A DNA stretch of 64,000 bases from Brachycybe producta. Taxonomy: Eukaryota > Arthropoda > Diplopoda > Playtdesmida > Andrognathidae. Shown one piece after another: positions 1 to 64,000 of the stretch. The stretch lies in NCBI GenBank assembly GCA_036925085.1, contig JAUPFP010000196.1, forward strand, positions 1-64,000, given 5' to 3'. The translations under genes and the position numbers were made by a program. Position 1 is the first letter of the stretch; each line of letters begins with the position of its first letter. The notes under the pieces are model-generated. The model made no database searches, was not told where the DNA came from, and saw only the letters and a list, made by a program, of their open reading frames with translations.

Positions 1-800
1 AAGTTAAACTTAAACTTCAATTTCAACTTCAAATTCAACTTCAACTTCAACTTCAATTTCAACTTCAATTTCAACTTCAATTTCAACTTCAATTTCAACT
101 TCAATTTCAAACTTAACTTCAACTTCAACTTTACATTCAAGTTCAACTTCAAATTTAACTTCAACTTCAACTTTAACTTCAACTTCAACTTAAAATTCAA
201 TTTTAACTTCAATTTTAACTTCAAATTCAACTTCAATTTCAACTTCAATTTCAACTTCAAATTCAACTTCAACTTCAACTTTAACCTTAACCTTAACTTA
301 AACTTAAACTTCAATTTTAACTTCAATTTCAACTTTAATTTCAACTTCAATTTCAACTTCAATTACAACTTCAATTTTAACTTCAGTTTCAACTTCAATT
401 TTAACTTCAATTTCAACTTCAAATTCAACTTCAATTTCAACTTCAATTTCAACTTCAATTTCAACTTCAATTTCAACTTCAATTTCAACTTCAATTTCAA
501 CTTCAATTTCAACTTCATTTTCAACTTCAATTTCAACTTCAATTTCAACTTAAATTTCAACTTCAGTTTCAACTTCAATTTTAACTTCAATTTCAACTTC
601 AATTTAACTTCAATTTCAACTTCAATTTCAACTTCAATTTCAACTTCAATTTCAACTTCAATTTCAACTTCAATTTCAACTTCAATTTCAACTTCCACTT
701 CAATTTCAAACTTAACTTCAACTTCAACTTAACTTCAACTTCAACTTTAACTTCACTTTCAAGTTCAACTTCAAATTGAACTTTAACTTCAACTTTAACT
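1..800 (+). repeat. X unit (left edge of window)
   Basis: Block order A(partial)-B without GTCGAC-C-E-run-D. Marks: CTTAAAATTC near 188, CTTCATTTTC at 513, slip CAATTTAAC at 600. Ends in the X-specific tail ATTGAACTTTAAC. Aligns to 27487 onward except at bases 1 and 3 and a few substitutions. Confidence 0.8.
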
Positions 801-1452
801 TCAATTAAACTTAAACTTCAATTTCAACTTCAAATTCAACTTCAACTTCAACTTCAATTTCAACTTCAATTTCAACTTCAATTTCAACTTCAATTTCAAC
901 TTCAATTTCAACTTCAATTTCAACTTCAATTTCAATGTCGACTTCAAGTTCAATGTCAATTTCAATTTCAAACTTAACTTCAACTTCAACTTTACATTCA
1001 AGTTCAACTTCAAATTTAACATCAACTTCAACTTTAACTTCAACTTCAACTTAAACTTCAATTTTAACTTCAAATTCAACTTCAATTTCAACTTCAATTT
1101 CAACTTCAAATTCAACTTCAACTTCAACTTTAACCTTAACCTTAACCTTAACTTAAACTTAAACTTCAATTTCAACTTCAATTTCAACTTCAATTTCAAC
1201 TTCAATTTCAACTTCAATTACAACTTCAATTTCAACTTCAGTTTCAACTTCAATTTTAACTTCAATTTCAACTTCAAATTCAACTTCAATTTCAACTTCA
1301 ATTTCAACTTCAATTTCAACTTCAATTTCAACTTCAATTTCAACTTCCACTTCAATTTCAAACTTAACTTCAACTTCAACTTAACTTCAACTTCAACTTT
1401 AACTTCACTTTCAAGTTCAACTTCAAATTCAACTTCAACTTCAACTTTAACT
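801..1452 (+). repeat. Y unit, 652 bp
   Basis: A-B(GTCGAC at 937)-AACATCAAC-C with three TTAACC-E-D. Same length as the Y units at 28287 and 46082. Confidence 0.85.
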
Positions 1453-2032
1453 TCAATTAAACTTAAACTTCAATTTCAACTTCAAATTCAACTTCAACTT
1501 CAACTTCAATTTCAACTTCAATTTCAACTTCAATTTCAACTTCAATTTCAACTTCAATTTCAACTTCAATTTCAACTTCAATTTCAACTTCAATTTCAAC
1601 TTCAATTTCAATGTCGACTTCAAGTTCAATGTCAATTTCAATTTCAAACTTAACTTCAACTTCAACTTTACATTCAAGTTCAACTTCAAATTTAACTTCA
1701 ACTTCAACTTTAACTTCAACTTCAACTTTAACTTCAACTTCAACTTAAACTTCAATTTTAACTTCAAATTCAACTTCAATTTCAACTTCAATTTCAACTT
1801 CAAATTCAACTTCAACTTCAACTTTAACCTTAACCTTAACTTAAACTTAAACTTCAATTTTAACTTCAATTTCAACTTCAATTTCAACTTCAATTTCAAC
1901 TTCAATTTCAACTTCAATTTCAACTTCCACTTCAATTTCAAACTTAACTTCAACTTCAACTTAACTTCAACTTCAACTTTAACTTCACTTTCAAGTTCAA
2001 CTTCAAATTCAACTTCAACTTCAACTTTAACT
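1453..2032 (+). repeat. d unit, 580 bp
   Basis: A-run-B(1613)-C-D. The 580-bp length recurs exactly at 28939 and 46734, always right after Y. Confidence 0.85.
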
Positions 2033-2894
2033 TCAATTAAACTTAAACTTCAATTTCAACTTCAAATTCAACTTCAACTTCAACTTCAATTTCAACTTCA
2101 ATTTCAACTTCAATTTCAACTTCAATTTCAACTTCAATTTCAACTTCAATTTCAACTTCAATTTCAACTTCAATTTCAACTTCAATTTCAACTTCAATTT
2201 CAATGTCGACTTCAAGTTCAATGTCAATTTCAATTTCAAACTTAACTTCAACTTCAACTTTACATTCAAGTTCAACTTCAAATTTAACTTCAACTTTAAC
2301 TTCAACTTCAACTTTAACTTCAACTTCAACTTAAACTTCAATTTTAACTTCAAATTCAACTTCAATTTCAACTTCAATTTCAACTTCAAATTCAACTTCA
2401 ACTTCAACTTTAACCTTAACCTTAACTTAAACTTAAACTTCAATTTTAACTTCAATTTCAACTTCAATTTCAACTTCAATTTCAACTTCAATTTCAACTT
2501 CAATTTCAACTTCAATTTCAACTTCAATTTCAACTTCAAATTCAACTTCAACTTCAACTTTAACCTTAACCTTAACCTTAACTTAAACTTAAACTTCAAT
2601 TTTAACTTCAATTTCAACTTCAATTTCAACTTCAAATTCAACTTCAATTACAACTTCAATTTCAACTTCAGTTTCAACTTCAATTTTAACTTCAATTTCA
2701 ACTTCAAATTCAACTTCAATTTCAACTTCAATTTCAACTTCAATTTCAACTTCAATTTCAACATCAATTTCAACTTCAATTTCAACTTCCACTTCAATTT
2801 CAAACTTAACTTCAACTTCAACTTAACTTCAACTTCAACTTTAACTTCACTTTCAAGTTCAACTTCAAATTCAACTTCAACTTCAACTTTAACT
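2033..2894 (+). repeat. c unit, 862 bp
   Basis: A-run-B(2205)-C-run-C3-E-D, with two C blocks, the second of three TTAACC. One 12-mer longer than the 850-bp form. Confidence 0.85.
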
Positions 2895-4242
2895 TCAATT
2901 AAACTTAAACTTCAATTTCAACTTCAAATTCAACTTCAACTTCAACTTCAATTTCAACTTCAATTTCAACTTCAATTTCAACTTCAATTTCAACTTCAAT
3001 TTCAACTTCAATTTCAACTTCAATTTCAACTTCAATTTCAACTTCAATTTCAACTTCAATTTCAACTTCAATTTCAATGTCGACTTCAAGTTCAATGTCA
3101 ATTTCAATTTCAAACTTAACTTCAACTTCAACTTTACATTCAAGTTCAACTTCAAATTTAACTTCAACTTCAACTTTAACTTCAACTTCAACTTTAACTT
3201 CAACTTCAACTTAAACTTCAATTTTAACTTCAATTTTAACTTCAAATTCAACTTCAATTTCAACTTCAATTTCAACTTCAAATTCAACTTCAACTTCAAC
3301 TTTAACCTTAACCTTAACTTAAACTTAAACTTCAATTTTAACTTCAATTTCAACTTCAATTTCAACTTCAATTTCAACTTCAATTTCAACTTCAATTTCA
3401 ACTTCAATTTCAACTTCAATTTCAACTTCAATTTCAACATCAATTTCAACTTCAATTTTAACTTCAATATCAACTTTGATTTCAATTTCGACTTCAATTT
3501 CAACTTCGATTTCAACTTCAATTTCAACTTCAATTTCAACTTCAATTTCAACTTCAACTTCAATTTTAACATCAATTTCAACTTCAATTTTAACTTCAAT
3601 TTCAACTTCAATTACAACTTCAATTTCAACTTCAGTTTCAACTTCAATTTTAACTTCAATTTCAACTTCAATTTCAACTTCAATTTTAACTTCAATATCA
3701 ACTTTGATTTCAATTTCGACTTCAATTTCAACTTCAAATTCAACTTCAACTTCAACTTTAACCTTAACCTTAACTTAAACTTAAACTTCAATTTTAACTT
3801 CAATTTCAGCTTCAATTTCAACATCAATTTCAACTTCAATTTCAACTTCAATTTCAACTTCAACTTCAACTTCAATTTTAACATCAATTTCAACTTCAAT
3901 TTTAACTTCAATTTCAACTTCAATTACAACTTCAATTTCAACTTCAGTTTCAACTTCAATTTTAACTTCAATTTCAACTTCAATTTCAACTTCAATTTCA
4001 ACTTCAATTTCAACTTCAATTTCAACTTCAATTTCAACTTCAATTTCAACTTCAATTTCAACTTCAATTTCAACTTCAATTTCAACTTCAATTTCAACTT
4101 CAATTTCAACTTCAATTTCAACTTTAATTTCAACTTCCACTTCAATTTCAAACTTAACTTCAACTTCAACTTAACTTCAACTTCAACTTTAACTTCACTT
4201 TCAAGTTCAACTTCAAATTGAACTTCAACTTCAACTTTAACT
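2895..4242 (+). repeat. e' unit, 1348 bp
   Basis: Like e but with a single B (3079). It is 480 bp shorter than e (1828), which equals the spacing of the two B blocks in e (7808 and 8288). TTTGAT of F is at 3475. G and two E blocks lie in the tail. Confidence 0.83.
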
Positions 4243-4798
4243 TCAATTAAACTTAAACTTCAATTTCAACTTCAAATTCAACTTCAACTTCAACTTCAAT
4301 TTCAACTTCAATTTCAACTTCAATTTCAACTTCAATTTCAACTTCAATTTCAACTTCAATTTCAACTTCAATTTCAACTTCAATTTCAATGTCGACTTCA
4401 AGTTCAATGTCAATTTCAATTTCAAACTTAACTTCAACTTCAACTTTACATTCAAGTTCAACTTCAAATTTAACATCAACTTCAACTTTAACTTCAACTT
4501 CAACTTTAACTTCAACTTCAACTTAAACTTCAATTTTAACTTCAAATTCAACTTCAATTTCAACTTCAATTTCAACTTCAAATTCAACTTCAACTTCAAC
4601 TTTAACCTTAACCTTAACTTAAACTTAAACTTCAATTTTAACTTCAATTTCAACTTCAATTTCAACTTCAATTTCAACTTCAATTTCAACTTCCACTTCA
4701 ATTTCAAACTTAACTTCAACTTCAACTTAACTTCAACTTCAACTTTAACTTCACTTTCAAGTTCAACTTCAAATTCAACTTCAACTTCAACTTTAACT
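4243..4798 (+). repeat. a unit, 556 bp
   Basis: A-run-B(4391)-AACATCAAC-C-D, following an e-type tail that ends ATTGAACTTCAAC. Confidence 0.85.
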
Positions 4799-5613
4799 TC
4801 AATTAAACTTAAACTTCAATTTCAACTTCAAATTCAACTTCAACTTCAACTTCAATTTCAACTTCAATTTCAACTTCAATTTCAACTTCAATTTCAACTT
4901 CAATTTCAACTTCAATTTCAACATCAATTTCAACTTCAATTTTAACTTCAATATCAACTTTGATTTCAACTTCAATTTCAACTTCAATTTCAACTTCAAT
5001 TTTAACTTCAATTTCAACTTCAACTTCAACTTCAATTTCAACTTCAATTTCAACTTCAATTTCAACTTCAATTTCAACTTCAATTTCAACTTCAATTTCA
5101 ACTTCAATTTCAACTTCAATTTCAACTTCAATTTCAATGTCGACTTCAAGTTCAATGTCAATTTCAATTTCAAACTTAACTTCAACTTCAACTTTACATT
5201 CAATTTCAACTTCAATTTTAACATTCAACTTCAATTTCAACTTCAATTTCAACTTCAAATTCAACTTCAACTTCAACTTTAACCTTAACCTTAACCTTAA
5301 CTTAAACTTAAACTTCAATTTTAACTTCAATTTCAACTTCAATTTCAACTTCAATTTCAACTTCAATTACAACTTCAATTTCAACTTCAGTTTCAACTTC
5401 AATTTTAACTTCAATTTCAACTTCAAATTCAACTTCAATTTCAACTTCAATTTCAACTTCAATTTCAACTTCAATTTCAACTTCAATTTCAACTTCAATT
5501 TCAACTTCCACTTCAATTTCAAACTTAACTTCAACTTCAACTTAACTTCAACTTCAACTTTAACTTCACTTTCAAGTTCAACTTCAAATTCAACTTCAAC
5601 TTCAACTTTAACT
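4799..5613 (+). repeat. b unit, 815 bp
   Basis: A-run-short F (TTTGATTTCAAC, no TTCGAC)-B(5139)-C3-E-D. Differs from the 808-bp form by one extra 12-mer and a private 5-bp loss (TTTTAACATTCAAC near 5217). Confidence 0.83.
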
Positions 5614-6157: not shown

Positions 6158-7007
6158 TCAATTAAACTTAAACTTCAATTTCAACTTCAAATTCAACTTC
6201 AACTTCAACTTCAATTTCAACTTCAATTTCAACTTCAATTTCAACTTCAATTTCAACTTCAATTTCAACTTCAATTTCAACTTCAATTTCAACTTCAATT
6301 TCAACTTCAATTTCAACTTCAATTTCAACTTCAATTTCAACTTCAATTTCAATGTCGACTTCAAGTTCAATGTCAATTTCAATTTCAAACTTAACTTCAA
6401 CTTCAACTTTACATTCAAGTTCAACTTCAAATTTAACTTCAACTTTAACTTCAACTTCAACTTTAACTTCAACTTCAACTTAAACTTCAATTTTAACTTC
6501 AAATTTAACTTCAATTTCAACTTCAATTTCAACTTCAAATTCAACTTCAACTTCAACTTTAACCTTAACCTTAACTTAAACTTAAACTTCAATTTTAACT
6601 TCAATTTCAACTTCAATTTCAACTTCAATTTCAACTTCAATTTCAACTTCAATTTCAACTTCAATTTCAACTTCAAATTCAACTTCAACTTCAACTTTAA
6701 CCTTAACCTTAACCTTAACTTAAACTTAAACTTCAATTTTAACTTCAATTTCAACTTCAATTTCAACTTCAAATTCAACTTCAATTACAACTTCAATTTC
6801 AACTTCAGTTTCAACTTCAATTTTAACTTCAATTTCAACTTCAAATTCAACTTCAATTTCAACTTCAATTTCAACTTCAATTTCAACTTCAATTTCAACT
6901 TCCACTTCAATTTCAAACTTAACTTCAACTTCAACTTAACTTCAACTTCAACTTTAACTTCACTTTCAAGTTCAACTTCAAATTCAACTTCAACTTCAAC
7001 TTTAACT
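6158..7007 (+). repeat. c unit, 850 bp
   Basis: A-run-B(6354)-C-run-C3-E-D, the modal c length. Confidence 0.84.
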
Positions 7008-12256: not shown

Positions 12257-14084
12257 TCAATTAAACTTAAACTTCAATTTCAACTTCAAATTCAACTTCA
12301 ACTTCAACTTCAATTTCAACTTCAATTTCAACTTCAATTTCAACTTCAATTTCAACTTCAATTTCAACTTCAATTTCAACTTCAATTTCAACTTCAATTT
12401 CAACTTCAATTTCAACTTCAATTTCAACTTCAATTTCAACTTCAATTTCAATGTCGACTTCAAGTTCAATGTCAATTTCAATTTCAAACTTAACTTCAAC
12501 TTCAACTTTACATTCAAGTTCAACTTCAAATTTAACTTCAACTTTAACTTCAACTTCAACTTTAACTTCAACTTCAACTTAAACTTCAATTTTAACTTCA
12601 AATTCAACTTCAATTTCAACTTCAAATTCAACTTCAACTTCAACTTTAACCTTAACCTTAACTTAAACTTAAACTTCAATTTTAACTTCAATTTCAACTT
12701 CAATTTCAACTTCAATTTCAACTTCAATTTCAACTTCAATTTCAACTTCAATTTCAACTTCAATTTCAACTTCAATTTCAACATCAATTTCAACTTCAAT
12801 TTTAACTTCAATATCAACTTTGATTTCAATTTCGACTTCAATTTCAACTTCGATTTCAACTTCAATTTCAACTTCAATTTCAACTTCAATTTCAACTTCA
12901 ATTTCAACTTCAATTTCAATGTCGACTTCAAGTTCAATGTCAATTTCAATTTCAAACTTAACTTCAACTTCAACTTTACATTCAAGTTCAACTTCAAATT
13001 TAACTTCAACTTCAACTTTAACTTCAACTTCAACTTTAACTTCAACTTCAACTTAAACTTCAATTTTAACTTCAATTTTAACTTCAAATTCAACTTCAAT
13101 TTCAACTTCAATTTCAACTTCAAATTCAACTTCAACTTCAACTTTAACCTTAACCTTAACTTAAACTTAAACTTCAATTTTAACTTCAATTTCAACTTCA
13201 ATTTCAACTTCAATTTCAACTTCAATTTCAACTTCAATTTCAACTTCAATTTCAACTTCAATTTCAACTTCAATTTCAACATCAATTTCAACTTCAATTT
13301 TAACTTCAATATCAACTTTGATTTCAATTTCGACTTCAATTTCAACTTCGATTTCAACTTCAATTTCAACTTCAATTTCAACTTCAATTTCAACTTCAAC
13401 TTCAATTTTAACATCAATTTCAACTTCAATTTTAACTTCAATTTCAACTTCAATTACAACTTCAATTTCAACTTCAGTTTCAACTTCAATTTTAACTTCA
13501 ATTTCAACTTCAATTTCAACTTCAATTTTAACTTCAATATCAACTTTGATTTCAATTTCGACTTCAATTTCAACTTCAAATTCAACTTCAACTTCAACTT
13601 TAACCTTAACCTTAACTTAAACTTAAACTTCAATTTTAACTTCAATTTCAGCTTCAATTTCAACATCAATTTCAACTTCAATTTCAACTTCAATTTCAAC
13701 TTCAATTTCAACTTCAACTTCAACTTCAATTTTAACATCAATTTCAACTTCAATTTTAACTTCAATTTCAACTTCAATTACAACTTCAATTTCAACTTCA
13801 GTTTCAACTTCAATTTTAACTTCAATTTCAACTTCAATTTCAACTTCAATTTCAACTTCAATTTCAACTTCAATTTCAACTTCAATTTCAACTTCAATTT
13901 CAACTTCAATTTCAACTTCAATTTCAACTTCAATTTCAACTTCAATTTCAACTTCAATTTCAACTTTAATTTCAACTTCCACTTCAATTTCAAACTTAAC
14001 TTCAACTTCAACTTAACTTCAACTTCAACTTTAACTTCACTTTCAAGTTCAACTTCAAATTGAACTTCAACTTCAACTTTAACT
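12257..14084 (+). repeat. e unit, 1828 bp
   Basis: Two B blocks (12453, 12921), 468 bp apart, one 12-mer fewer than in the reference e. The tail from 13394 is the start of the 6.3-kb duplicated segment. Confidence 0.85.
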
Positions 14085-14622
14085 TCAATTAAACTTAAAC
14101 TTCAATTTCAACTTCAAATTCAACTTCAACTTCAACTTCAATTTCAACTTCAATTTCAACTTCAATTTCAACTTCAATTTCAACTTCAATTTCAACTTCA
14201 ATTTCAACTTCAATTTCAACTTCAATTTCAATGTCGACTTCAAGTTCAATGTCAATTTCAATTTCAAACTTAACTTCAACTTCAACTTTACATTCAAGTT
14301 CAACTTCAAATTTAACATCAACTTCAACTTTAACTTCAACTTCAACTTTAACTTCAACTTCAACTTAAACTTCAATTTTAACTTCAAATTCAACTTCAAT
14401 TTCAACTTCAATTTCAACTTCAAATTCAACTTCAACTTCAACTTTAACCTTAACCTTAACTTAAACTTAAACTTCAATTTTAACTTCAATTTCAACTTCA
14501 ATTTCAACTTAAATTTCAACTTCAATTTCAACTTCCACTTCAACTTCAACTTAACTTCAACTTCAACTTTAACTTCACTTTCAAGTTCAACTTCAAATTC
14601 AACTTCAACTTCAACTTTAACT
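14085..14622 (+). repeat. a unit, 538 bp
   Basis: B at 14233. An 18-bp loss in D (CCACTTCAACTTCAACTTAAC) makes it shorter than 556. Shares CTTAAATTTC with the a unit at 20372. Confidence 0.84.
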
Positions 14623-15430
14623 TCAATTAAACTTAAACTTCAATTTCAACTTCAAATTCAACTTCAACTTCAACTTCAATTTCAACTTCAATTTCAACTT
14701 CAATTTCAACTTCAATTTCAACTTCAATTTCAACTTCAATTTCAACATCAATTTCAACTTCAATTTTAACTTCAATATCAACTTTGATTTCAACTTCAAT
14801 TTCAACTTCAATTTCAACTTCAATTTTAACTTCAATTTCAACTTCAACTTCAACTTCAATTTCAACTTCAATTTCAACTTCAATTTCAACTTCAATTTCA
14901 ACTTCAATTTCAACTTCAATTTCAACTTCAATTTCAACTTCAATTTCAACTTCAATTTCAATGTCGACTTCAAGTTCAATGTCAATTTCAATTTCAAACT
15001 TAACTTCAACTTCAACTTTACATTCAATTTCAACTTCAATTTTAACTTCAAATTCAACTTCAATTTCAACTTCAATTTCAACTTCAAATTCAACTTCAAC
15101 TTCAACTTTAACCTTAACCTTAACCTTAACTTAAACTTAAACTTCAATTTTAACTTCAATTTCAACTTCAATTTCAACTTCAATTTCAACTTCAATTACA
15201 ACTTCAATTTCAACTTCAGTTTCAACTTCAATTTTAACTTCAATTTCAACTTCAAATTCAACTTCAATTTCAACTTCAATTTCAACTTCAATTTCAACTT
15301 CAATTTCAACTTCAATTTCAACTTCCACTTCAATTTCAAACTTAACTTCAACTTCAACTTAACTTCAACTTCAACTTTAACTTCACTTTCAAGTTCAACT
15401 TCAAATTCAACTTCAACTTCAACTTTAACT
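14623..15430 (+). repeat. b unit, 808 bp
   Basis: Short F, B(14963), C3, E, D. Confidence 0.84.
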
Positions 15431-48749: not shown

Positions 48750-49599
48750 TCAATTAAACTTAAACTTCAATTTCAACTTCAAATTCAACTTCAACTTCAA
48801 CTTCAATTTCAACTTCAATTTCAACTTCAATTTCAACTTCAATTTCAACTTCAATTTCAACTTCAATTTCAACTTCAATTTCAACTTCAATTTCAACTTC
48901 AATTTCAACTTCAATTTCAACTTCAATTTCAACTTCAATTTCAACTTCAATTTCAACTTCAATTTCAATGTCGACTTCAAGTTCAATGTCAATTTCAATT
49001 TCAAACTTAACTTCAACTTCAACTTTACATTCAAGTTCAACTTCAAATTTAACTTCAACTTTAACTTCAACTTCAACTTTAACTTCAACTTCAACTTCAA
49101 CTTCAATTTTAACTTCAAATTCAACTTCAATTTCAACTTCAATTTCAACTTCAAATTCAACTTCAACTTCAACTTTAACCTTAACCTTAACTTAAACTTA
49201 AACTTCAATTTTAACTTCAATTTCAACTTCAATTTCAACTTCAATTTCAACTTCAATTTCAACTTCAATTTCAACTTCAATTTCAACTTCAATTTCAACT
49301 TCAAATTCAACTTCAACTTCAACTTTAACCTTAACCTTAAAATTAACTTAAACTTAAACTTCAATTTTAACTTCAATTTCAACTTCAATTTCAACTTCAA
49401 TTTCAACTTCAATTTCAACTTCAAATTCAACTTCAATTTCAACTTCAATTTCAACTTCAATTTCAACTTCAATTTCAACTTCAATTTCAACTTCCACTTC
49501 AATTTCAAACTTAACTTCAACTTCAACTTAACTTCAACTTCAACTTTAACTTCACTTTCAAGTTCAACTTCAAATTCAACTTCAACTTCAACTTTAACT
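48750..49599 (+). repeat. c variant unit, 850 bp
   Basis: B(48970), C, then a second C changed to TTAACCTTAAAATTAAC near 49330. Block E is missing. Confidence 0.83.
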
Positions 49600-50167
49600 T
49601 CAATTAAACTTAAACTTCAATTTCAACTTCAAATTCAACTTCAACTTCAACTTCAATTTCAACTTCAATTTCAACTTCAATTTCAACTTCAATTTCAACT
49701 TCAATTTCAACTTCAATTTCAACTTCAATTTCAACTTCAATTTCAATGTCGACTTCAAGTTCAATGTCAATTTCAATTTCAAACTTAACTTCAACTTCAA
49801 CTTTACATTCAAGTTCAACTTCAAATTTAACTTCAACTTCAACTTTAACTTCAACTTCAACTTTAACTTCAACTTCAACTTAAACTTCAATTTTAACTTC
49901 AAATTCAACTTCAATTTCAACTTCAATTTCAACTTCAAATTCAACTTCAACTTCAACTTTAACCTTAACCTTAACTTAAACTTAAACTTCAATTTTAACT
50001 TCAATTTCAACTTCAATTTCAACTTCAATTTCAACTTCAATTTCAACTTCAATTTCAACTTCCACTTCAATTTCAAACTTAACTTCAACTTCAACTTAAC
50101 TTCAACTTCAACTTTAACTTCACTTTCAAGTTCAACTTCAAATTCAACTTCAACTTCAACTTTAACT
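49600..50167 (+). repeat. d unit, 568 bp
   Basis: B(49748), C, D. Confidence 0.84.
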
Positions 50168-51995
50168 TCAATTAAACTTAAACTTCAATTTCAACTTCAA
50201 ATTCAACTTCAACTTCAACTTCAATTTCAACTTCAATTTCAACTTCAATTTCAACTTCAATTTCAACTTCAATTTCAACTTCAATTTCAACTTCAATTTC
50301 AACTTCAATTTCAACTTCAATTTCAACTTCAATTTCAATGTCGACTTCAAGTTCAATGTCAATTTCAATTTCAAACTTAACTTCAACTTCAACTTTACAT
50401 TCAAGTTCAACTTCAAATTTAACTTCAACTTTAACTTCAACTTCAACTTTAACTTCAACTTCAACTTAAACTTCAATTTTAACTTCAAATTCAACTTCAA
50501 TTTCAACTTCAATTTCAACTTCAAATTCAACTTCAACTTCAACTTTAACCTTAACCTTAACTTAAACTTAAACTTCAATTTTAACTTCAATTTCAACTTC
50601 AATTTCAACTTCAATTTCAACTTCAATTTCAACTTCAATTTCAACTTCAATTTCAACTTCAATTTCAACATCAATTTCAACTTCAATTTTAACTTCAATA
50701 TCAACTTTGATTTCAATTTCGACTTCAATTTCAACTTCGATTTCAACTTCAATTTCAACTTCAATTTCAACTTCAATTTCAACTTCAATTTCAACTTCAA
50801 TTTCAACTTCAATTTTAATGTCGACTTCAAGTTCAATGTCAATTTCAATTTCAAACTTAACTTCAACTTCAACTTTACATTCAAGTTCAACTTCAAATTT
50901 AACTTCAACTTCAACTTTAACTTCAACTTCAACTTTAACTTCAACTTCAACTTAAACTTCAATTTTAACTTCAATTTTAACTTCAAATTCAACTTCAATT
51001 TCAACTTCAATTTCAACTTCAAATTCAACTTCAACTTCAACTTTAACCTTAACCTTAACTTAAACTTAAACTTCAATTTTAACTTCAATTTCAACTTCAA
51101 TTTCAACTTCAATTTCAACTTCAATTTCAACTTCAATTTCAACTTCAATTTCAACTTCAATTTCAACTTCAATTTCAACATCAATTTCAACTTCAATTTT
51201 AACTTCAATATCAACTTTGATTTCAATTTCGACTTCAATTTCAACTTCGATTTCAACTTCAATTTCAACTTCAATTTCAACTTCAATTTCAACTTCAACT
51301 TCAATTTTAACATCAATTTCAACTTCAATTTTAACTTCAATTTCAACAACAATTACAACTTCAATTTCAACTTCAGTTTCAACTTCAATTTTAACTTCAA
51401 TTTCAACTTCAATTTCAACTTCAATTTTAACTTCAATATCAACTTTGATTTCAATTTCGACTTCAATTTCAACTTCAAATTCAACTTCAACTTCAACTTT
51501 AACCTTAACCTTAACTTAAACTTAAACTTCAATTTTAACTTCAATTTCAGCTTCAATTTCAACATCAATTTCAACTTCAATTTCAACTTCAATTTCAACT
51601 TCAATTTCAACTTCAACTTCAACTTCAATTTTAACATCAATTTCAACTTCAATTTTAACTTCAATTTCAACTTCAATTACAACTTCAATTTCAACTTCAG
51701 TTTCAACTTCAATTTTAACTTCAATTTCAACTTCAATTTCAACTTCAATTTCAACTTCAATTTCAACTTCAATTTCAACTTCAATTTCAACTTCAATTTC
51801 AACTTCAATTTCAACTTCAATTTCAACTTCAATTTCAACTTCAATTTCAACTTCAATTTCAACTTCAATTTCAACTTTAATTTCAACTTCCACTTCAATT
51901 TCAAACTTAACTTCAACTTCAACTTAACTTCAACTTCAACTTTAACTTCACTTTCAAGTTCAACTTCAAATTGAACTTCAACTTCAACTTTAACT
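50168..51995 (+). repeat. e unit, 1828 bp
   Basis: B 50340 and 50820 (second as TTTTAATGTCGAC). Private AACAACAATTAC before the first E near 51347. Confidence 0.85.
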
Positions 51996-52539
51996 TCAAT
52001 TAAACTTAAACTTCAATTTCAACTTCAAATTCAACTTCAACTTCAACTTCAATTTCAACTTCAATTTCAACTTCAATTTCAACTTCAATTTCAACTTCAA
52101 TTTCAACTTCAATTTCAACTTCAATTTCAATGTCGACTTCAAGTTCAATGTCAATTTCAATTTCAAACTTAACTTCAACTTCAACTTTACATTCAAGTTC
52201 AACTTCAAATTTAACATCAACTTCAACTTTAACTTCAACTTCAACTTTAACTTCAACTTCAACTTAAACTTCAATTTTAACTTCAAATTCAACTTCAATT
52301 TCAACTTCAATTTCAACTTCAAATTCAACTTCAACTTCAACTTTAACCTTAACCTTAACTTAAACTTAAACTTCAATTTTAACTTCAATTTCAACTTCAA
52401 TTTCAACTTCAATTTCAACTTCAATTTCAACTTCCACTTCAATTTCAAACTTAACTTCAACTTCAACTTAACTTCAACTTCAACTTTAACTTCACTTTCA
52501 AGTTCAACTTCAAATTCAACTTCAACTTCAACTTTAACT
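51996..52539 (+). repeat. a unit, 544 bp
   Basis: B(52132), AACATCAAC, C, D. One 12-mer short. Confidence 0.84.
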
Positions 52540-53347
52540 TCAATTAAACTTAAACTTCAATTTCAACTTCAAATTCAACTTCAACTTCAACTTCAATTTC
52601 AACTTCAATTTCAACTTCAATTTCAACTTCAATTTCAACTTCAATTTCAACTTCAATTTCAACATCAATTTCAACTTCAATTTTAACTTCAATATCAACT
52701 TTGATTTCAACTTCAATTTCAACTTCAATTTCAACTTCAATTTTAACTTCAATTTCAACTTCAACTTCAACTTCAATTTCAACTTCAATTTCAACTTCAA
52801 TTTCAACTTCAATTTCAACTTCAATTTCAACTTCAATTTCAACTTCAATTTCAACTTCAATTTCAACTTCAATTTCAATGTCGACTTCAAGTTCAATGTC
52901 AATTTCAATTTCAAACTTAACTTCAACTTCAACTTTACATTCAATTTCAACTTCAATTTTAACTTCAAATTCAACTTCAATTTCAACTTCAATTTCAACT
53001 TCAAATTCAACTTCAACTTCAACTTTAACCTTAACCTTAACCTTAACTTAAACTTAAACTTCAATTTTAACTTCAATTTCAACTTCAATTTCAACTTCAA
53101 TTTCAACTTCAATTACAACTTCAATTTCAACTTCAGTTTCAACTTCAATTTTAACTTCAATTTCAACTTCAAATTCAACTTCAATTTCAACTTCAATTTC
53201 AACTTCAATTTCAACTTCAATTTCAACTTCAATTTCAACTTCCACTTCAATTTCAAACTTAACTTCAACTTCAACTTAACTTCAACTTCAACTTTAACTT
53301 CACTTTCAAGTTCAACTTCAAATTCAACTTCAACTTCAACTTTAACT
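52540..53347 (+). repeat. b unit, 808 bp
   Basis: Short F, B(52880), C3, E, D. Confidence 0.84.
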
Positions 53348-53880
53348 TCAATTAAACTTAAACTTCAATTTCAACTTCAAATTCAACTTTAACTTCAACT
53401 TCAATTTCAACTTCAATTTCAACTTCAATTTCAACTTCAATTTCAACTTCAATTTCAACTTCAATTTCAACTTCAATTTCAACTTCAATTTCAACTTCAA
53501 TTTCAACTTCAATTTCAATGTCGACTTCAAGTTCAATGTCAATTTCAATTTCAAACTTAACTTCAACTTCAACTTTACATTCAAGTTCAACTTCAAATTT
53601 AACTTCAACTTCAACTTTAACTTCAACTTCAACTTTAACTTCAACTTCATCTTCAACTTCAATTTTAACTTCAAATTCAACTTCAATTTCAACTTCAATT
53701 TCAACTTCAAATTCAACTTCAACTTCAACTTTAACCTTAACCTTAACTTAAACTTAAACTTCAATTTTAACTTCAATTTCAACTTCAATTTCAACTTCAA
53801 TTTCAACTTCAATTTCAACTTCAATTTCAACTTCAATTTCAAGTTCAACTTCAAATTCAACTTCAACTTCAACTTTAACT
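53348..53880 (+). repeat. f unit, 533 bp
   Basis: B(53520), CTTCATCTTC variant, truncated D. Private TTCAACTTTAAC near 53386. Confidence 0.84.
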
Positions 53881-55755
53881 TCAATTAAACTTAAACTTCA
53901 ATTTCAACTTCAAATTCAACTTCAACTTCAACTTCAATTTCAACTTCAATTTCAACTTCAATTTCAACTTCAATTTCAACTTCAATTTCAACTTCAATTT
54001 CAACTTCAATTTCAACTTCAATTTCAACTTCAATTTCAACTTCAATTTCAACTTCAATTTCAACTTCAATTTCAACTTCAATTTCAACTTCAATTTCAAT
54101 GTCGACTTCAAGTTCAATGTCAATTTCAATTTCAAACTTAACTTCAACTTCAACTTTACATTCAAGTTCAACTTCAAATTTAACTTCAACTTCAACTTTA
54201 ACTTCAACTTCAACTTAAACTTCAATTTTAACTTCAAATTCAACTTCAATTTCAACTTCAATTTCAACTTCAAATTCAACTTCAACTTCAACTTTAACCT
54301 TAACCTTAACTTAAACTTAAACTTCAATTTTAACTTCAATTTCAACTTCAATTTCAACTTCAATTTCAACTTCAATTTCAACTTCAATTTCAACTTCAAT
54401 TTCAACTTCAATTTCAACTTCAATTTCAACATCAATTTCAACTTCAATTTTAACTTCAATATTAACTTTGATTTCAATTTCGACTTCAATTTCAACTTCG
54501 ATTTCAACTTCAATTTCAACTTCAATTTCAACTTCAATTTCAACTTCAATTTAACTTCAATTTCAACGTCGACTTCAAGTTCAATATCAATTTCAATTTC
54601 AAACTTAACTTCAACTTCAACTTTACATTCAAGTTCAACTTCAAATTTAACTTCAACTTCAACTTTAACTTCAACTTCAACTTTAACTTCAACTTCAACT
54701 TAAACTTCAATTTTAACTTCAATTTTAACTTCAAATTCAACTTCAATTTCAACTTCAATTTCAACTTCAATTTCAACTTCAAATTCAACTTCAACTTCAA
54801 CTTTAACCTTAACCTTAACTTAAACTTAAACTTCAATTTTAACTTCAATTTCAACTTCAATTTCAACTTCAATTTCAACTTCAATTTCAACTTCAATTTC
54901 AACTTCAATTTCAACTTCAATTTCAACTTCAATTTCAACATCAATTTCAACTTCAATTTTAACTTCAATATCAACTTTGATTTCAATTTCGACTTCAGTT
55001 TCAACTTCGATTTCAACTTCAATTTCAACTTCAATTTCAACTTCAATTTCAACTTCAACTTCAATTTTAACATCAATTTCAACTTCAATTTTAACTTCAA
55101 TTTCAACTTCAATTACAACTTCAATTTCAACTTCAGTTTCAACTTCAATTTTAACTTCAATTTCAACTTCAATTTCAACTTCAATTTTAACTTCAATATC
55201 AACTTTGATTTCAATTTCGACTTCAATTTCAACTTCAAATTCAACTTCAACTTCAACTTTAACCTTAACCTTAACTTAAACTTAAACTTCAATTTTAACT
55301 TCAATTTCAGCTTCAATTTCAACATCAATTTCAACTTCAATTTCAACTTCAATTTCAACTTCAATTTCAACTTCAACTTCAACTTCAATTTTAACATCAA
55401 TTTCAACTTCAATTTTAACTTCAATTTCAACTTCAATTACAACTTCAATTTCAACTTCAGTTTCAACTTCAATTTTAACTTCAATTTCAACTTCAATTTC
55501 AACTTCAATTTCAACTTCAATTTCAACTTCAATTTCAACTTCAATTTCAACTTCAATTTCAACTTCAATTTCAATTTCAATTTCAACTTCAATTTCAACT
55601 TCAATTTCAACTTCAATTTCAACTTCAATTTCAACTTTAATTTCAACTTCCACTTCAATTTCAAACTTAACTTCAACTTCAACTTAACTTCAACTTCAAC
55701 TTTAACTTCACTTTCAAGTTCAACTTCAAATTGAACTTCAACTTCAACTTTAACT
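53881..55755 (+). repeat. e'' unit, 1875 bp
   Basis: B 54101, slip CAATTTAAC (54547), AACGTCGAC at 54568. Lacks the TTTCACCTTC and CTTGAATTTC marks of the two e'' units in copy 1. Private AATATTAAC near 54460. Confidence 0.84.
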
Positions 55756-57672
55756 TCAATTAAACTTAAACTTCAATTTCAACTTCAAATTCAACTTCAA
55801 CTTCAACTTCAATTTCAACTTCAATTTCAACTTCAATTTCAACTTCAATTTCAACTTCAATTTCAATGTCGACTTCAAGTTCAATGTCAATTTCAATTTC
55901 AAACTTAACTTCAACTTCAACTTTACATTCAAGTTCAACTTCAAATTTAACATCAACTTCAACTTTAACTTCAACTTCAACTTAAACTTCAATTTTAACT
56001 TCAAATTCAACTTCAATTTCAACTTCAATTTCAACTTCAATTTCAACTTTAATTACAACTTCAATTTCAACTTCAGTTTCAACTTCAATTTTAACTTCAA
56101 TTTCAACTTCAAATTCAACTTCAATTTCAACTTCAATTTCAACTTCAACTTCAACTTCAATTTCAACTTCAATTTCAACTTCAATTTCAACTTCCACTTC
56201 AATTTCAAACTTAACTTCAACTTCAACTTAACTTCAACTTCAACTTTAACTTCACTTTCAAGTTCAACTTCAATTTCAACTTCAATTTCAACTTCAATTT
56301 TAACATCAATTTCAACTTCAATTTTAACTTCAATATCAACTTTGATTTCAATTTCGACTTCAATTTCAACTTCGATTGCAACTTCAATTTCAACTTCAAT
56401 TTCAACTTCAATTTCAACTTCAATTTCAACTTCAATTTCAATGTCGACTTCAAGTTCAATGTCAATTTCAATTTCAAACTTAACTTCAACTTCAACTTTA
56501 CATTCAAGTTCAACTTCAAATTTAACTTCAACTTCAACTTTAACTTCAACTTCAACTTAAACTTCAATTTTAACTTCAATTTTAACTTCAATTTCAACTT
56601 CAATTTCAACTTCAATTTCAACTTCAAATTCAACTTCAACTTCAACTTTAACCTTAACCTTAACTTAAACTTAAACTTCAATTTTAACTTCAATTTCAAC
56701 TTCAATTTCAACTTCAATTTCAACTTCAATTTCAACTTCAATTTCAACTTCAATTTCAACTTCAATTTCAACTTCAATTTCAACATCAATTTCAACTTCA
56801 ATTTTAACTTCAATATCAACTTTGATTTCAATTTCGACTTCAATTTCAACTTCGATTTCAACTTCAATTTCAACTTCAATTTCAACTTCAATTTCAACTT
56901 CAACTTCAATTTTAACATCAATTTCAACTTCAATTTTAACTTCAATTTCAACTTCAATTACAACTTCAATTTCAACTTCAGTTTCAACTTCAATTTTAAC
57001 TTCAATTTCAACTTCAATTTCAACTTCAATTTCAACTTCAATTTTAACTTCAATATCAACTTTGATTTCAATTTCGACTTCAATTTCAACTTCAAATTCA
57101 ACTTCAACTTCAACTTTAACCTTAACCTTAACTTAAACTTAAACTTCAATTTTAACTTCAATTTCAGCTTCAATTTCAACTTCAATTTCAACTTCAATTT
57201 CAACTTCAATTTCAACATCAATTTCAACTTCAATTTTAACTTCAATATCAACTTTGATTTCAATTTCGACTTCAATTTCAACTTCGATTTCAACTTCAAT
57301 TTCAACTTCAATTTCAACTTCAATTTCAACTTCAACTTCAATTTTAACATCAATTTCAACTTCAATTTTAACTTCAATTTCAACTTCAATTACAACTTCA
57401 ATTTCAACTTCAGTTTCAACTTCAATTTTAACTTCAATTTCAACTTCAATTTCAACTTCAATTTCAACTTCAATTTCAACTTCAATTTCAACTTCAATTT
57501 CAACTTCAATTTCAACTTCAATTTCAACTTCAATTTCAACTTCAATTTCAACTTCAATTTCAACTTCCACTTCAATTTCAAACTTAACTTCAACTTCAAC
57601 TTAACTTCAACTTCAACTTTAACTTCACTTTCAAGTTCAACTTCAAATTGAACTTCAACTTCAACTTTAACT
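55756..57672 (+). repeat. h' unit, 1917 bp
   Basis: B 55868 and 56443, CGATTGCAAC variant near 56372. The end is set where block A should begin but is missing; the resulting length differs from the h' at 25545 by exactly two 12-mers. Confidence 0.8.
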
Positions 57673-58403
57673 TCAACTTCAATTTCAACTTCAATTTCAA
57701 CTTCAATTTCAAACTTAACTTCAACTTCAACTTTACATTCAAGTTCAACTTCAAATTTAACTTCAACTTCAACTTTAACTTCAACTTCAACTTAAAATTC
57801 AATTTTAACTTCAATTTTAACTTCAAATTCAACTTCAATTTCAACTTCAATTTCAACTTCAAATTCAACTTCAACTTCAACTTTAACCTTAACCTTAACT
57901 TAAACTTAAACTTCAATTTTAACTTCAATTTCAACTTCAATTTCAACTTCAATTTCAACTTCAATTACAACTTCAATTTTAACTTCAGTTTCAACTTCAA
58001 TTTTAACTTCAATTTCAACTTCAAATTCAACTTCAATTTCAACTTCAATTTCAACTTCAATTTCAACTTCAATTTCAACTTCAATTTCAACTTCAATTTC
58101 AACTTCAATTTCAACTTCATTTTCAACTTCAATTTCAACTTCAATTTCAACTTAAATTTCAACTTCAGTTTCAACTTCAATTTTAACTTCAATTTCAACT
58201 TCAATTTCAACTTCAATTTCAACTTCAATTTCAACTTCAATTTCAACTTCAATTTCAACTTCAATTTCAACTTCAATTTCAACTTCAATTTCAACTTCCA
58301 CTTCAATTTCAAACTTAACTTCAACTTCAACTTAACTTCAACTTCAACTTTAACTTCACTTTCAAGTTCAACTTCAAATTGAACTTTAACTTCAACTTTA
58401 ACT
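57673..58403 (+). repeat. X unit lacking block A, 731 bp
   Basis: CTTTAACTTC runs directly into the 12-mer run, so TCAATTAAACTTAAAC and its flank are deleted. CTTAAAATTC, CTTCATTTTC and CTTAAATTTC are present. Ends ATTGAACTTTAAC. Confidence 0.8.
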
Positions 58404-59067
58404 TCAATTAAACTTAAACTTCAATTTCAACTTCAAATTCAACTTCAACTTCAACTTCAATTTCAACTTCAATTTCAACTTCAATTTCAACTTCAATTTC
58501 AACTTCAATTTCAACTTCAATTTCAACTTCAATTTCAACTTCAATTTCAATGTCGACTTCAAGTTCAATGTCAATTTCAATTTCAAACTTAACTTCAACT
58601 TCAACTTTACATTCAAGTTCAACTTCAAATTTAACATCAACTTCAACTTTAACTTCAACTTCAACTTAAACTTCAATTTTAACTTCAAATTCAACTTCAA
58701 TTTCAACTTCAATTTCAACTTCAAATTCAACTTCAACTTCAACTTTAACCTTAACCTTAACCTTAACTTAAACTTAAACTTCAATTTTAACTTCAATTTC
58801 AACTTCAATTTCAACTTCAATTTCAACTTCAATTACAACTTCAATTTCAACTTCAGTTTCAACTTCAATTTTAACTTCAATTTCAACTTCAAATTCAACT
58901 TCAATTTCAACTTCAATTTCAACTTCAATTTCAACTTCAATTTCAACTTCAATTTCAACTTCCACTTCAATTTCAAACTTAACTTCAACTTCAACTTAAC
59001 TTCAACTTCAACTTTAACTTCACTTTCAAGTTCAACTTCAAATTGAACTTCAACTTCAACTTTAACT
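58404..59067 (+). repeat. Y unit, 664 bp, with exchanged tail
   Basis: B(58552), C3, E, D. Ends ATTGAACTTCAAC, a tail otherwise seen on e and h units rather than on Y, which suggests exchange. Confidence 0.82.
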
Positions 59068-59731
59068 TCAATTAAACTTAAACTTCAATTTCAACTTCAA
59101 ATTCAACTTCAACTTCAACTTCAATTTCAACTTCAATTTCAACTTCAATTTCAACTTCAATTTCAACTTCAATTTCAACTTCAATTTCAACTTCAATTTC
59201 AACTTCAATTTCAACTTCAATTTCAATGTCGACTTCAAGTTCAATGTCAATTTCAATTTCAAACTTAACTTCAACTTCAACTTTACATTCAAGTTCAACT
59301 TCAAATTTAACATCAACTTCAACTTTAACTTCAACTTCAACTTAAACTTCAATTTTAACTTCAAATTCAACTTCAATTTCAACTTCAATTTCAACTTCAA
59401 ATTCAACTTCAACTTCAACTTTAACCTTAACCTTAACCTTAACTTAAACTTAAACTTCAATTTTAACTTCAATTTCAACTTCAATTTCAACTTTAATTTC
59501 AACTTCAATTACAACTTCAATTTCAACTTCAGTTTCAACTTCAATTTTAACTTCAATTTCAACTTCAAATTCAACTTCAATTTCAACTTCAATTTCAACT
59601 TCAATTTCAACTTCAATTTCAACTTCCACTTCAATTTCAAACTTAACTTCAACTTCAACTTAACTTCAACTTCAACTTTAACTTCACTTTCAAGTTCAAC
59701 TTCAAATTCAACTTCAACTTCAACTTTAACT
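59068..59731 (+). repeat. Y unit, 664 bp
   Basis: B(59228), AACATCAAC, C3, CTTTAATTTC, E, D ending ATTCAAC. Confidence 0.84.
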
Positions 59732-60364
59732 TCAATTAAACTTAAACTTCAATTTCAACTTCAAATTCAACTTCAACTTCAACTTCAATTTCAACTTCAA
59801 TTTCAACTTCAATTTCAACTTCAATTTCAACTTCAATTTCAACTTCAATTTCAACTTCAATTTCAACTTCAATTTCAACTTCAATTTCAACTTCAATTTC
59901 AATGTCGACTTCAAGTTCAATGTCAATTTCAATTTCAAACTTAACTTCAACTTCAACTTTACATTCAAGTTCAACTTCAAATTTAACTTCAACTTCAACT
60001 TTAACTTCAACTTCAACTTTAACTTCAACTTCAACTTCAACTTCAATTTTAACTTCAAATTCAACTTCAATTTCAACTTCAATTTCAACTTCAAATTCAA
60101 CTTCAACTTCAACTTTAACCTTAACCTTAACTTAAACTTAAACTTCAATTTTAACTTCAATTTCAACTTCAATTTCAACTTCAATTTCAACTTCAATTTC
60201 AACTTCAATTTCAACTTCAATTTCAACTTCAATTTCAACTTCCACTTCAATTTCAAACTTAACTTCAACTTCAACTTAACTTCAACTTCAACTTAACTTC
60301 AACTTCAACTTTAACTTCACTTTCAAGTTCAACTTCAAATTCAACTTCAACTTCAACTTTAACT
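59732..60364 (+). repeat. d* unit, 633 bp
   Basis: B(59904), TTCAACTTCAATTTT in place of CTTAAACTTCAATTTT, C, run, D with three 17-bp repeats (60258-60308). Confidence 0.84.
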
Positions 60365-60788
60365 TCAATTAAACTTAAACTTCAATTTCAACTTCAAATT
60401 CAACTTCAACTTCAACTTCAATTTCAACTTCAATTTCAACTTCAATTTCAACTTCAATTTCAACTTCAATTTCAACTTCAATTTCAACTTCAATTTCAAC
60501 TTCAATTTCAACTTCAATTTCAACTTCAATTTCAACTTCAATTTCAACTTCAATTTCAATGTCGACTTCAAGTTCAATGTCAATTTCAATTTCAAACTTA
60601 ACTTCAACTTCAACTTTACATTCAATTTCAACTTCAATTTCAACTTCAATTTCAACTTCAATTTCAACTTCAATTTCAACTTCCACTTCAATTTCAAACT
60701 TAACTTCAACTTCAACTTAACTTCAACTTCAACTTTAACTTCACTTTCAAGTTCAACTTCAAATTGAACTTTAACTTCAACTTTAACT
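60365..60788 (+). repeat. k unit, 424 bp
   Basis: A-run-B(60561)-TTTACATTCAATTTC-run-D, with no C. The b-like left half and X-type end (ATTGAACTTTAAC) suggest a recombinant. Confidence 0.83.
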
Positions 60789-61452
60789 TCAATTAAACTT
60801 AAACTTCAATTTCAACTTCAAATTCAACTTCAACTTCAACTTCAATTTCAACTTCAATTTCAACTTCAATTTCAACTTCAATTTCAACTTCAATTTCAAC
60901 TTCAATTTCAACTTCAATTTCAACTTCAATTTCAACTTCAATTTCAATGTCGACTTCAAGTTCAATGTCAATTTCAATTTCAAACTTAACTTCAACTTCA
61001 ACTTTACATTCAAGTTCAACTTCAAATTTAACATCAACTTCAACTTTAACTTCAACTTCAACTTAAACTTCAATTTTAACTTCAAATTCAACTTCAATTT
61101 CAACTTCAATTTCAACTTCAAATTCAACTTCAACTTCAACTTTAACCTTAACCTTAACCTTAACTTAAACTTAAACTTCAATTTTAACTTCAATTTCAAC
61201 TTCAATTTCAACTTTAATTTCAACTTCAATTACAACTTCAATTTCAACTTCAGTTTCAACTTCAATTTTAACTTCAATTTCAACTTCAAATTCAACTTCA
61301 ATTTCAACTTCAATTTCAACTTCAATTTCAACTTCAATTTCAACTTCCACTTCAATTTCAAACTTAACTTCAACTTCAACTTAACTTCAACTTCAACTTT
61401 AACTTCACTTTCAAGTTCAACTTCAAATTCAACTTCAACTTCAACTTTAACT
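60789..61452 (+). repeat. Y unit, 664 bp
   Basis: B(60949), C3, CTTTAATTTC, E, D. Matches the unit at 59068 in length. Confidence 0.84.
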
Positions 61453-62075
61453 TCAATTAAACTTAAACTTCAATTTCAACTTCAAATTCAACTTCAACTT
61501 CAACTTCAATTTCAACTTCAATTTCAACTTCAATTTCAACTTCAATTTCAACTTCAATTTCAACTTCAATTTCAACTTCAATTTCAACTTCAATTTCAAC
61601 TTCAATTTCAATGTCGACTTCAAGTTCAATGTCAATTTCAATTTCAAACTTAACTTCAACTTCAACTTTACATTCAAGTTCAACTTCAAATTTAACTTCA
61701 ACTTCAACTTTAACTTCAACTTCAACTTTAACTTCAACTTCAACTTCAACTTCAATTTTAACTTCAAATTCAACTTCAATTTCAACTTCAATTTCAACTT
61801 CAAATTCAACTTCAACTTCAACTTTAACCTTAACCTTAACTTAAACTTAAACTTCAATTTTAACTTCAATTTCAACTTCAATTTCAACTTCAATTTCAAC
61901 TTCAATTTCAACTTCAATTTCAACTTCAATTTCAACTTCAATTTCAACTTCCACTTCAATTTCAAACTTAACTTCAACTTCAACTTAACTTCAACTTCAA
62001 CTTAACTTCAACTTCAACTTTAACTTCACTTTCAAGTTCAACTTCTCAAATTCAACTTCAACTTCAACTTTAACT
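61453..62075 (+). repeat. d* unit, 623 bp
   Basis: B(61613), C, D with three 17-bp repeats (61967-62017) and a private 2-bp insertion near 62045. Confidence 0.84.
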
Positions 62076-62523
62076 TCAATTAAACTTAAACTTCAATTTC
62101 AACTTCAAATTCAACTTCAACTTCAACTTCAATTTCAACTTCAATTTCAACTTCAATTTCAACTTCAATTTCAACTTCAATTTCAACTTCAATTTCAACT
62201 TCAATTTCAACTTCAATTTCAACTTCAATTTCAACTTCAATTTCAACTTCAATTTCAACTTCAATTTCAACTTCAATTTCAACTTCAATTTCAATGTCGA
62301 CTTCAAGTTCAATGTCAATTTCAATTTCAAACTTAACTTCAACTTCAACTTTACATTCAATTTCAACTTCAATTTCAACTTCAATTTCAACTTCAATTTC
62401 AACTTCAATTTCAACTTCCACTTCAATTTCAAACTTAACTTCAACTTCAACTTAACTTCAACTTCAACTTTAACTTCACTTTCAAGTTCAACTTCAAATT
62501 GAACTTTAACTTCAACTTTAACT
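62076..62523 (+). repeat. k unit, 448 bp
   Basis: B(62296), no C, D with X-type tail. Two 12-mers longer than the k at 60365. Confidence 0.83.
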
Positions 62524-63185
62524 TCAATTAAACTTAAACTTCAATTTCAACTTCAAATTCAACTTCAACTTCAACTTCAATTTCAACTTCAATTTCAACT
62601 TCAATTTCAACTTCAATTTCAACTTCAATTTCAACTTCAATTTCAACTTCAATTTCAACTTCAATTTCAATGTCGACTTCAAGTTCAATGTCAATTTCAA
62701 TTTCAAACTTAACTTCAACTTCAACTTTACATTCAAGTTCAACTTCAAATTTAACATCAACTTCAACTTTAACTTCAACTTCAACTTAAACTTCATTTAA
62801 CTTCAAATTCAACTTCAATTTCAACTTCAATTTCAACTTCAAATTCAACTTCAACTTCAACTTTAACCTTAACCTTAACCTTAACTTAAACTTAAACTTC
62901 AATTTTAACTTCAATTTCAACTTCAATTTCAACTTCAATTTCAACTTCAATTACAACTTCAATTTCAACTTCAGTTTCAACTTCAATTTTAACTTCAATT
63001 TCAACTTCAAATTCAACTTCAATTTCAACTTCAATTTCAACTTCAATTTCAACTTCAATTTCAACTTCAATTTCAACTTCCACTTCAATTTCAAACTTAA
63101 CTTCAACTTCAACTTAACTTCAACTTCAACTTTAACTTCACTTTCAAGTTCAACTTCAAATTCAACTTCAACTTCAACTTTAACT
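62524..63185 (+). repeat. Y unit, 662 bp
   Basis: B(62672), AACATCAAC, CTTCATTTAAC (2 bp lost), C3, E, D. Confidence 0.83.
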
Positions 63186-63818
63186 TCAATTAAACTTAAA
63201 CTTCAATTTCAACTTCAAATTCAACTTCAACTTCAACTTCAATTTCAACTTCAATTTCAACTTCAATTTCAACTTCAATTTCAACTTCAATTTCAACTTC
63301 AATTTCAACTTCAATTTCAACTTCAATTTCAACTTCAATTTCAATGTCGACTTCAAGTTCAATGTCAATTTCAATTTCAAACTTAACTTCAACTTCAACT
63401 TTACATTCAAGTTCAACTTCAAATTTAACTTCAACTTCAACTTTAACTTCAACTTCAACTTTAACTTCAACTTCAACTTCAACTTCAATTTTAACTTCAA
63501 ATTCAACTTCAATTTCAACTTCAATTTCAACTTCAAATTCAACTTCAACTTCAACTTTAACCTTAACCTTAACTTAAACTTAAACTTCAATTTTAACTTC
63601 AATTTCAACTTCAATTTCAACTTCAATTTCAACTTCAATTTCAACTTCAATTTCAACTTCAATTTCAACTTCAATTTCAACTTCAATTTCAACTTCCACT
63701 TCAATTTCAAACTTAACTTCAACTTCAACTTAACTTCAACTTCAACTTAACTTCAACTTCAACTTTAACTTCACTTTCAAGTTCAACTTCAAATTCAACT
63801 TCAACTTCAACTTTAACT
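63186..63818 (+). repeat. d* unit, 633 bp
   Basis: B(63346), C, D with three 17-bp repeats (63712-63762). Same length as the d* at 59732. Confidence 0.84.
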
Positions 63819-64000
63819 TCAATTAAACTTAAACTTCAATTTCAACTTCAAATTCAACTTCAACTTTAACTTCAACTTCAACTTTAACTTCAACTTCAAC
63901 TTCAACTTCAATTTTAACTTCAAATTCAACTTCAATTTCAACTTCAATTTCAACTTCAAATTCAACTTCAACTTCAACTTTAACCTTAACCTTAACTTAA
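63819..64000 (+). repeat. Partial unit at window end, run and B deleted
   Basis: After block A the sequence passes within about 45 bp into the post-B part (TTTAACTTCAACTTCAAC), so the 12-mer run and GTCGAC block are absent. The window stops inside block C. Confidence 0.78.

Follow-up and report, generated by a model that had tools for sequence, protein, structure and literature searches.

The mouse major satellite consists of nested doublings of a short ancestral motif with a regular 234-bp unit, and we know of no multi-kilobase super-repeats in it. In the sections of Warburton et al (2008; PMC2588610) considered here, several human "simple sequence" arrays are described as complex in organisation, being arranged in domains or at a higher order; the higher-order repeats measure 3,360, 3,600, and 5,630 bp where GAATG forms the array and ~5.8 kb in an HsatII array. 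The sections considered of Altemose et al (2014; PMC4022460) give a 1.77-kb unit for HSat2 and a 3.6-kb unit for HSat3 (DYZ1), with array-specific compositions. By the same excerpts, human satellite 3 (DYZ1), which is based on the GAATG pentamer, has the 3.6-kb repeat at Yq12 and those of 3,360 and 5,630 bp at Yq11.1, and human satellite 2 has the 1.77-kb unit on chromosome 1 and the higher-order repeat of ~5.8 kb in a chromosome 16 array (PMC2588610; PMC4022460). For alpha satellite, the sections considered of a review (PMC8122249) give monomers that are ~70% alike and higher-order copies that are up to 97–100% alike.

A preliminary description of the DNA studied here, which is from the millipede Brachycybe producta, held that simple-sequence satellites usually lack deep higher-order structure. 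Because higher-order repeats of 1.8–5.8 kb have been published for human GAATG and HSat2,3 arrays, the unusualness claimed in this way was too strong. The nested layering of the satellite is confirmed and its kind is already known; the array is a new case, with nesting that is deeper and less regular than in the human-satellite descriptions compared, and its unusual points are the depth of the nesting and an 84-bp marker that occurs in exact form on just two contigs. A satellite named by a TTCAAY-type motif was not found in the titles and abstract beginnings of the open-access literature, a partial coverage in which absence proves little.

The window, that is, the whole stretch of 64,000 nucleotides analysed, covers the first 64 kb of contig C196 (84,826 bp) in a genome assembly of 295,300,729 bases and 442 contigs. 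One satellite occupies it throughout:

1 to 64,000, + strand: continuous satellite with the 12-bp consensus AACTTCAATTTC (two TTCAAY hexamers), from lag identity and TRF

Identity within the window was 0.792 at lag 6 and 0.857 at lag 12, and TRF reported a single array at 13–63,980 with a period of 12, 5,349 copies, and 84% matches. Exact TTCAAY or RTTGAA contained 68.8% of the bases, with 7,318 forward occurrences of TTCAAY against 22 of its reverse complement, and the orientation of the array does not change within the window. Here a short motif is repeated head to tail over a long distance, as in a simple-sequence satellite, and the hexamer and 12-mer periodicity, with TTCAAY as the motif, places the array outside the HSat2,3 family, which is of CATTC/GAATG pentamer ancestry. 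The satellite also fills the 20,826 bp of the contig past the window, and both contig ends are satellite. The + strand of the window has 25,483 T, 22,163 A, 15,658 C, and 696 G, a strong strand asymmetry in which G makes up 1.1% of the bases, and the GC skew lies between −0.88 and −0.93 in every 2-kb step.

To describe the next level, the contig was cut before every CTT, which gave 8,369 tokens belonging to 84 types. Among these, the rarer ones recur in the same order over long strings, with CTTCAATTTCAA runs of variable length between them. A core termed "mj" served as an anchor for units; the contig has 102 such anchors with a spacing of 234–2,229 bp, 79 of which start within the window, where the full spacings are 376–2,179 bp. 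One unit is given as an example:

942 to 1,617, + strand: unit of class A, 676 bp, from "mj" anchors and unit clustering

The 101 units of the contig were compared by global alignment. Neighbouring units (offset 1) had a mean similarity of 0.518 versus 0.562 for all pairs, and the highest means among offsets 1–60 were found at offsets 21 (0.676), 36 (0.655), 13 (0.641), 46 (0.624), 23 (0.620), and 8 (0.618); offset 34, which corresponds to the 27.5-kb copy, and offset 5 were both weak (0.602 and 0.570). None of 500 permutations of the unit order reached the observed peak of 0.676 over offsets 1–40 (mean of the maxima 0.609, sd 0.012). Copies of larger units in the contig are more alike than adjacent small units, as is characteristic of a higher-order repeat satellite.

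The window has stop-free frames of up to 627 codons, and 160 kb of a second contig (C53) has frames of up to 4,743 codons; a repetitive coding region with long Phe-Asn or Leu-Lys dipeptide repeats could be read from them. This reading is extremely improbable, as three token-shuffled arrays had stop-free frames of 325, 587, and 541 codons, close to the real 627, and tokens of 5, 7, 11, and 13 bases break the frame. Coding frames were rejected on these two grounds; the frames are long because the common hexamers have no stop in most frames.

Above the units, we searched the contig for near-identical segments, defined as ungapped, at least 1 kb long, at least 98.5% identical in 500-bp windows, and at a lag of at least 600. 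There were 64 of them, with the longest being 2,688 bp, whereas three token shuffles and three order-3 token Markov arrays had none. The following blocks were located in the window:

13,329 to 26,004, + strand: 6.3-kb block present twice in tandem, at lags 6,287–6,317 (13,329–14,559 and 14,625–19,687 match)
30,416 to 37,906, + strand: repeat at lag 5,177 (30,416–32,729 matches 35,593–37,906)
36,270 to 39,713, + strand: repeat at lag 1,807 (36,270–37,906 matches 38,077–39,713)
59,233 to 63,338, + strand: three-unit block in tandem at lag 1,721 (AOQ at clustering threshold 0.08, ABL at 0.15)

The match at lag 1,721 covers 59,233–61,617. Lags of about 6.3, 27.5, and 1.73 kb had been predicted beforehand, and they were found at 6,287–6,317, 27,486, and 1,721. 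The first steps proposed in the preliminary description, from the TTCAAY hexamer to 12-mers and to units of 0.4–2 kb, agree with the lag identity, TRF, and the "mj" anchors, and the repeats of 1.7–6.3 kb proposed above them are seen at lags 6,287–6,317, 5,177, 1,807, and 1,721. A periodicity of 12 bp only, which had been named as the outcome against nesting, was not obtained; multi-kilobase lags were present in the contig and missing in all six shuffled or Markov arrays.

Unit clustering at threshold 0.08 gave 25 classes, by which the contig reads, in its first part (super-repeats 1 and 2), ABCDEFBCBGDE HCBGDE HIJIGDKE HIJIGDLM / ABCDEFBCBGDENEHCBGDLM, and in the rest, ABCOPBGDEHIGDLM / AAOQAOQARSTM / AOGDLUOGDLVLM / ABWDXY, where the spaces, slashes, and cut points are our choice. 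The super-repeats in the window are as follows:

942 to 28,427, + strand: super-repeat 1, 34 units, 27.5 kb, from unit clustering and marker spacing
28,428 to 46,222, + strand: super-repeat 2, 21 units, 17.8 kb, from unit clustering
46,223 to 58,556, + strand: super-repeat 3, 15 units, 12.3 kb, from unit clustering
58,557 to 64,000, + strand: start of super-repeat 4 (12 units, 8.8 kb, ending at 67,317 of the contig), from unit clustering

The contig has five complete super-repeats, of 34, 21, 15, 12, and 13 units. Class A begins all five and LM ends four of them, with TM ending the 12-unit one, and they differ from each other by whole internal blocks; units 1–12 of super-repeat 2 repeat units 1–12 of super-repeat 1 at lag 27,486. 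A 48-bp marker chosen independently of the unit cuts gave nearly equal super-repeat lengths, as it lies at 177, 27,663, 45,469, 57,779, 66,520, and 78,432 of the contig, with spacings of 27,486, 17,806, 12,310, 8,741, and 11,912 bp, the last two beyond the window. Marker spacing thus bears out the proposed super-repeats of 12–27 kb, with the correction that their lengths vary (27.5, 17.8, and 12.3 kb). Since they are unequal in length, there is no single clean higher-order repeat, and the array is not governed by one regular integer repeat over most of its length. The similarity peaks at offsets 8, 13, and 21 (with 5 and 34 weaker) look Fibonacci-like; this probably follows from the combination of blocks of 5 and 8 units, since there are further peaks at offsets 23, 36, and 46, and the later super-repeats comprise 15, 12, and 13 units.

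As far as the published sections considered here go, the satellite resembles human satellite 3 in having a very short ancestral monomer, diverged copies, multi-kilobase higher-order repeats, and a domain structure, although the motif and the organism differ, and human satellite 3 is described there with no more than two repeat sizes in an array, whereas super-repeats of 12–27 kb lie here on top of kilobase-scale blocks. It shares with human satellite 2, as portrayed in these sections, array-specific kilobase-scale units made from diverged short repeats; that satellite, however, shows one repeat size over a long stretch, and the block sizes here vary by super-repeat. The presence of higher-order repeats within higher-order repeats recalls the cascading higher-order repeats of alpha satellite, to judge from the part of the literature compared, but alpha satellite has a 171-bp monomer and is centromeric, whereas the monomer here is 12 bp and a centromere link is only putative.

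The satellite extends well beyond this contig. A 24-mer of the motif had 77,395 forward and 94,288 reverse matches genome-wide (171,683), compared with 4,903 and 5,475 (10,378) for the pattern written in reverse order as a control, an abundance expected of a satellite; if the density of the window (1,470 matches per 64 kb) is assumed throughout, this extrapolates to ~7.5 Mb. The 60-bp "mj" core had 367 matches, which were on C149, C159, and C174 among the matches listed (the first 100). The 48-bp marker had 34 matches, on C149, C174, C196, and C237, with six copies 754–790 bp apart on C237 and 1.5–31.6 kb between four same-strand copies on C149. The 84-bp marker had 11 exact matches among the 442 contigs, only on C196 (8) and C293 (3); exact matching overlooks diverged copies of such markers. 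As markers are held in common but are spaced differently, the arrays have a common vocabulary and different higher-order arrangements. In addition, 4 of 20 one-kb samples (three from C53 and one from C195) were rich in TTCAA/TTGAA by motif count, although the samples were picked by hand and give no estimate of abundance.

A second array, at 905,001–1,065,000 of the 1.28-Mb contig C53, consists of 160 kb of a TTCAAC-rich dialect and contained, with slightly different search settings, 46 near-identical segments of at least 1 kb at nested lags from 918 to 48,603 bp. None of the 13,411 different 100-mers of C196 and 14 of 7,622 of its 60-mers occurred in this array. The orientation is reversed in the final 1 kb of C53 and one of the five markers on C149 is on the opposite strand, indicating that orientation changes occur in the satellite; this is another likeness to arrays related to human satellite 3, for which inversions appear in the sections considered of PMC2588610 and PMC4022460.

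These data also bear on whether near-identical reads were misjoined during assembly, creating the multi-kilobase periodicity. C196 ends without a unique anchor on either side, the copies differ partly in run length, which sequencing error can mimic, and the structure was read from the assembled sequence. However, the longest exact repeat in C196 (2,481 bp at lag 2,577, at position 72,727, outside the window) is shorter than usual long reads, so that longer reads would encounter differences between the copies and could resolve the array. At lags above 20 kb, the longest exact repeat is 2,263 bp, which is also the longest in the window. Moreover, the super-repeats are not identical, as whole blocks and tags differ, and similar nesting is present inside C53. 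We thus regard an assembly artefact as very improbable, and a misassembly of all levels is unlikely.

Several observations were made elsewhere in the assembly. The last 1 kb of C17 (4,638,526–4,639,525) is an (AGTCGA)n array, and the GTTGAA satellite is present on C17 from ~4,624,380 (sample 4,619,000–4,628,999); these are possibly sister hexamer satellites. By eye, a TTTAGGGCAAATGG-like repeat-rich block (2,880–5,390 of the same sample) adjoins the GTTGAA satellite. A GTTTAAGGTTGAAC-like repeat occupies C197:1–1,000. A different repeat, which by eye has a much longer unit, lies at C53:1–1,000, C53:300,001–301,000, and C5:1–1,000 and is a candidate for the main or centromeric satellite. A TTAGG 50-mer had 450 forward and 7,016 reverse matches genome-wide; among the matches listed, those on C1 begin exactly at 5,001, and N fills the first 1 kb of this contig (possibly a gap). 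The 15,359-bp contig C442 carries mitochondrial genes that are open under the invertebrate mitochondrial code, with ND4L, ND4, and ND5 on the COX1 strand and ND1 opposite (names by eye), and nuclear COX1-like copies are at C1:12,697,416–12,698,753, which is nearly full length with one internal TAA, and C17:4,027,703–4,029,047.

The distribution of the markers may raise the idea of a functional higher-order array, such as a centromere or another chromosome-specific element, kept by selection or by centromere-linked homogenisation like alpha satellite. The confinement of exact 84-bp marker copies to two contigs and the dependence of the 48-bp marker spacing on the contig (754–790 bp on C237 and 8.7–27.5 kb on C196) recall chromosome-specific higher-order repeats. 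Local drift, however, yields an equal contig-specific pattern, exact matching would miss diverged copies, and the longer-unit repeat of C53 and C5 could equally be centromeric, so that we consider a functional array unlikely. By analogy, the hexamer might have diversified into array-specific higher-order dialects that represent chromosome-specific centromeric or pericentromeric domains, with the hexamer in the role of the primate 171-bp alpha satellite and a depth of nesting beyond that known to us for any simple satellite, a possibility to which we would give only a small chance.

The satellite was probably shaped by unequal exchange at many scales, and it is most likely non-coding and heterochromatic, the location being a deduction. 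A 12-bp ancestor of two TTCAAY hexamers would have gained point and small length changes, which constitute the tags, and out-of-register sister-chromatid exchange would then have duplicated and deleted segments of tens of bp to tens of kb, with each larger event copying the pattern left by smaller ones, so that units, blocks, and super-repeats may have arisen in this way. Serial duplication and deletion is supported by the fact that the super-repeats begin with A, mostly end with LM, and differ by whole blocks, and the nesting in the second array, with its other dialect, counts as support for exchange at multiple scales. The alternatives to sister exchange named in the sections considered of a review (PMC8122249), break-induced replication and rolling circles, the latter acting through reinsertion, are not separated from it here, as they would leave a similar record. 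The preliminary description had read the unit order as a recombination history; the order can be taken as a record of duplications and deletions, whereas the mechanism is our interpretation. What was observed directly is the nesting of the copies, their tags, the difference between adjacent and distant units, and the outcome of the shuffle controls; we infer the recombination mechanism and the absence of a sequence-specific function.

A toy neutral simulation was performed, in which a 12-mer array underwent point mutation and random tandem duplication and deletion; it used a size distribution of our own, with no selection, no one-base indels, and an array length that drifted between 48 and 136 kb. 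With events of up to 60 bp, a multi-kilobase repeat appeared in 0 of 6 and 0 of 12 runs, and with events of up to 600 bp in 0 of 12 runs; purely local slippage was rejected as insufficient in the simulation. With events of up to 6 kb, the runs showed between two and four levels, with four in 1 of 12 and 1 of 6 runs, and with events of up to 30 kb, at least four levels arose in 23 of 24 and 6 of 6 runs, where the count of levels is crude in that it chains lags and includes non-adjacent copies. The highest lag observed in the real array, 78,484, depends on one 1-kb segment. In the runs with events of up to 30 kb, the longest near-identical ungapped segments were always longer than the 2,688 bp of the real array (24 of 24 runs, with 2,858–27,301 bp, and 6 of 6 runs), indicating that neither the size nor the age of the real copies is reproduced by the simulation, and the mean lag-12 identity was 0.715 in half of the 24 runs versus 0.856 in the real array. 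Within the model, then, unequal exchange over a broad range of scales can yield such depth, and the simulation leaves the actual route unproven.

As the array carries tags at every scale, it records its own exchange events, and by sequencing individuals with long reads one could determine how often unequal exchange takes place in a short-motif satellite and with what size spectrum. A broad size range of tandem copying suffices in the toy simulation, which suggests that neither a long monomer nor a centromere function is required for deep higher-order structure.
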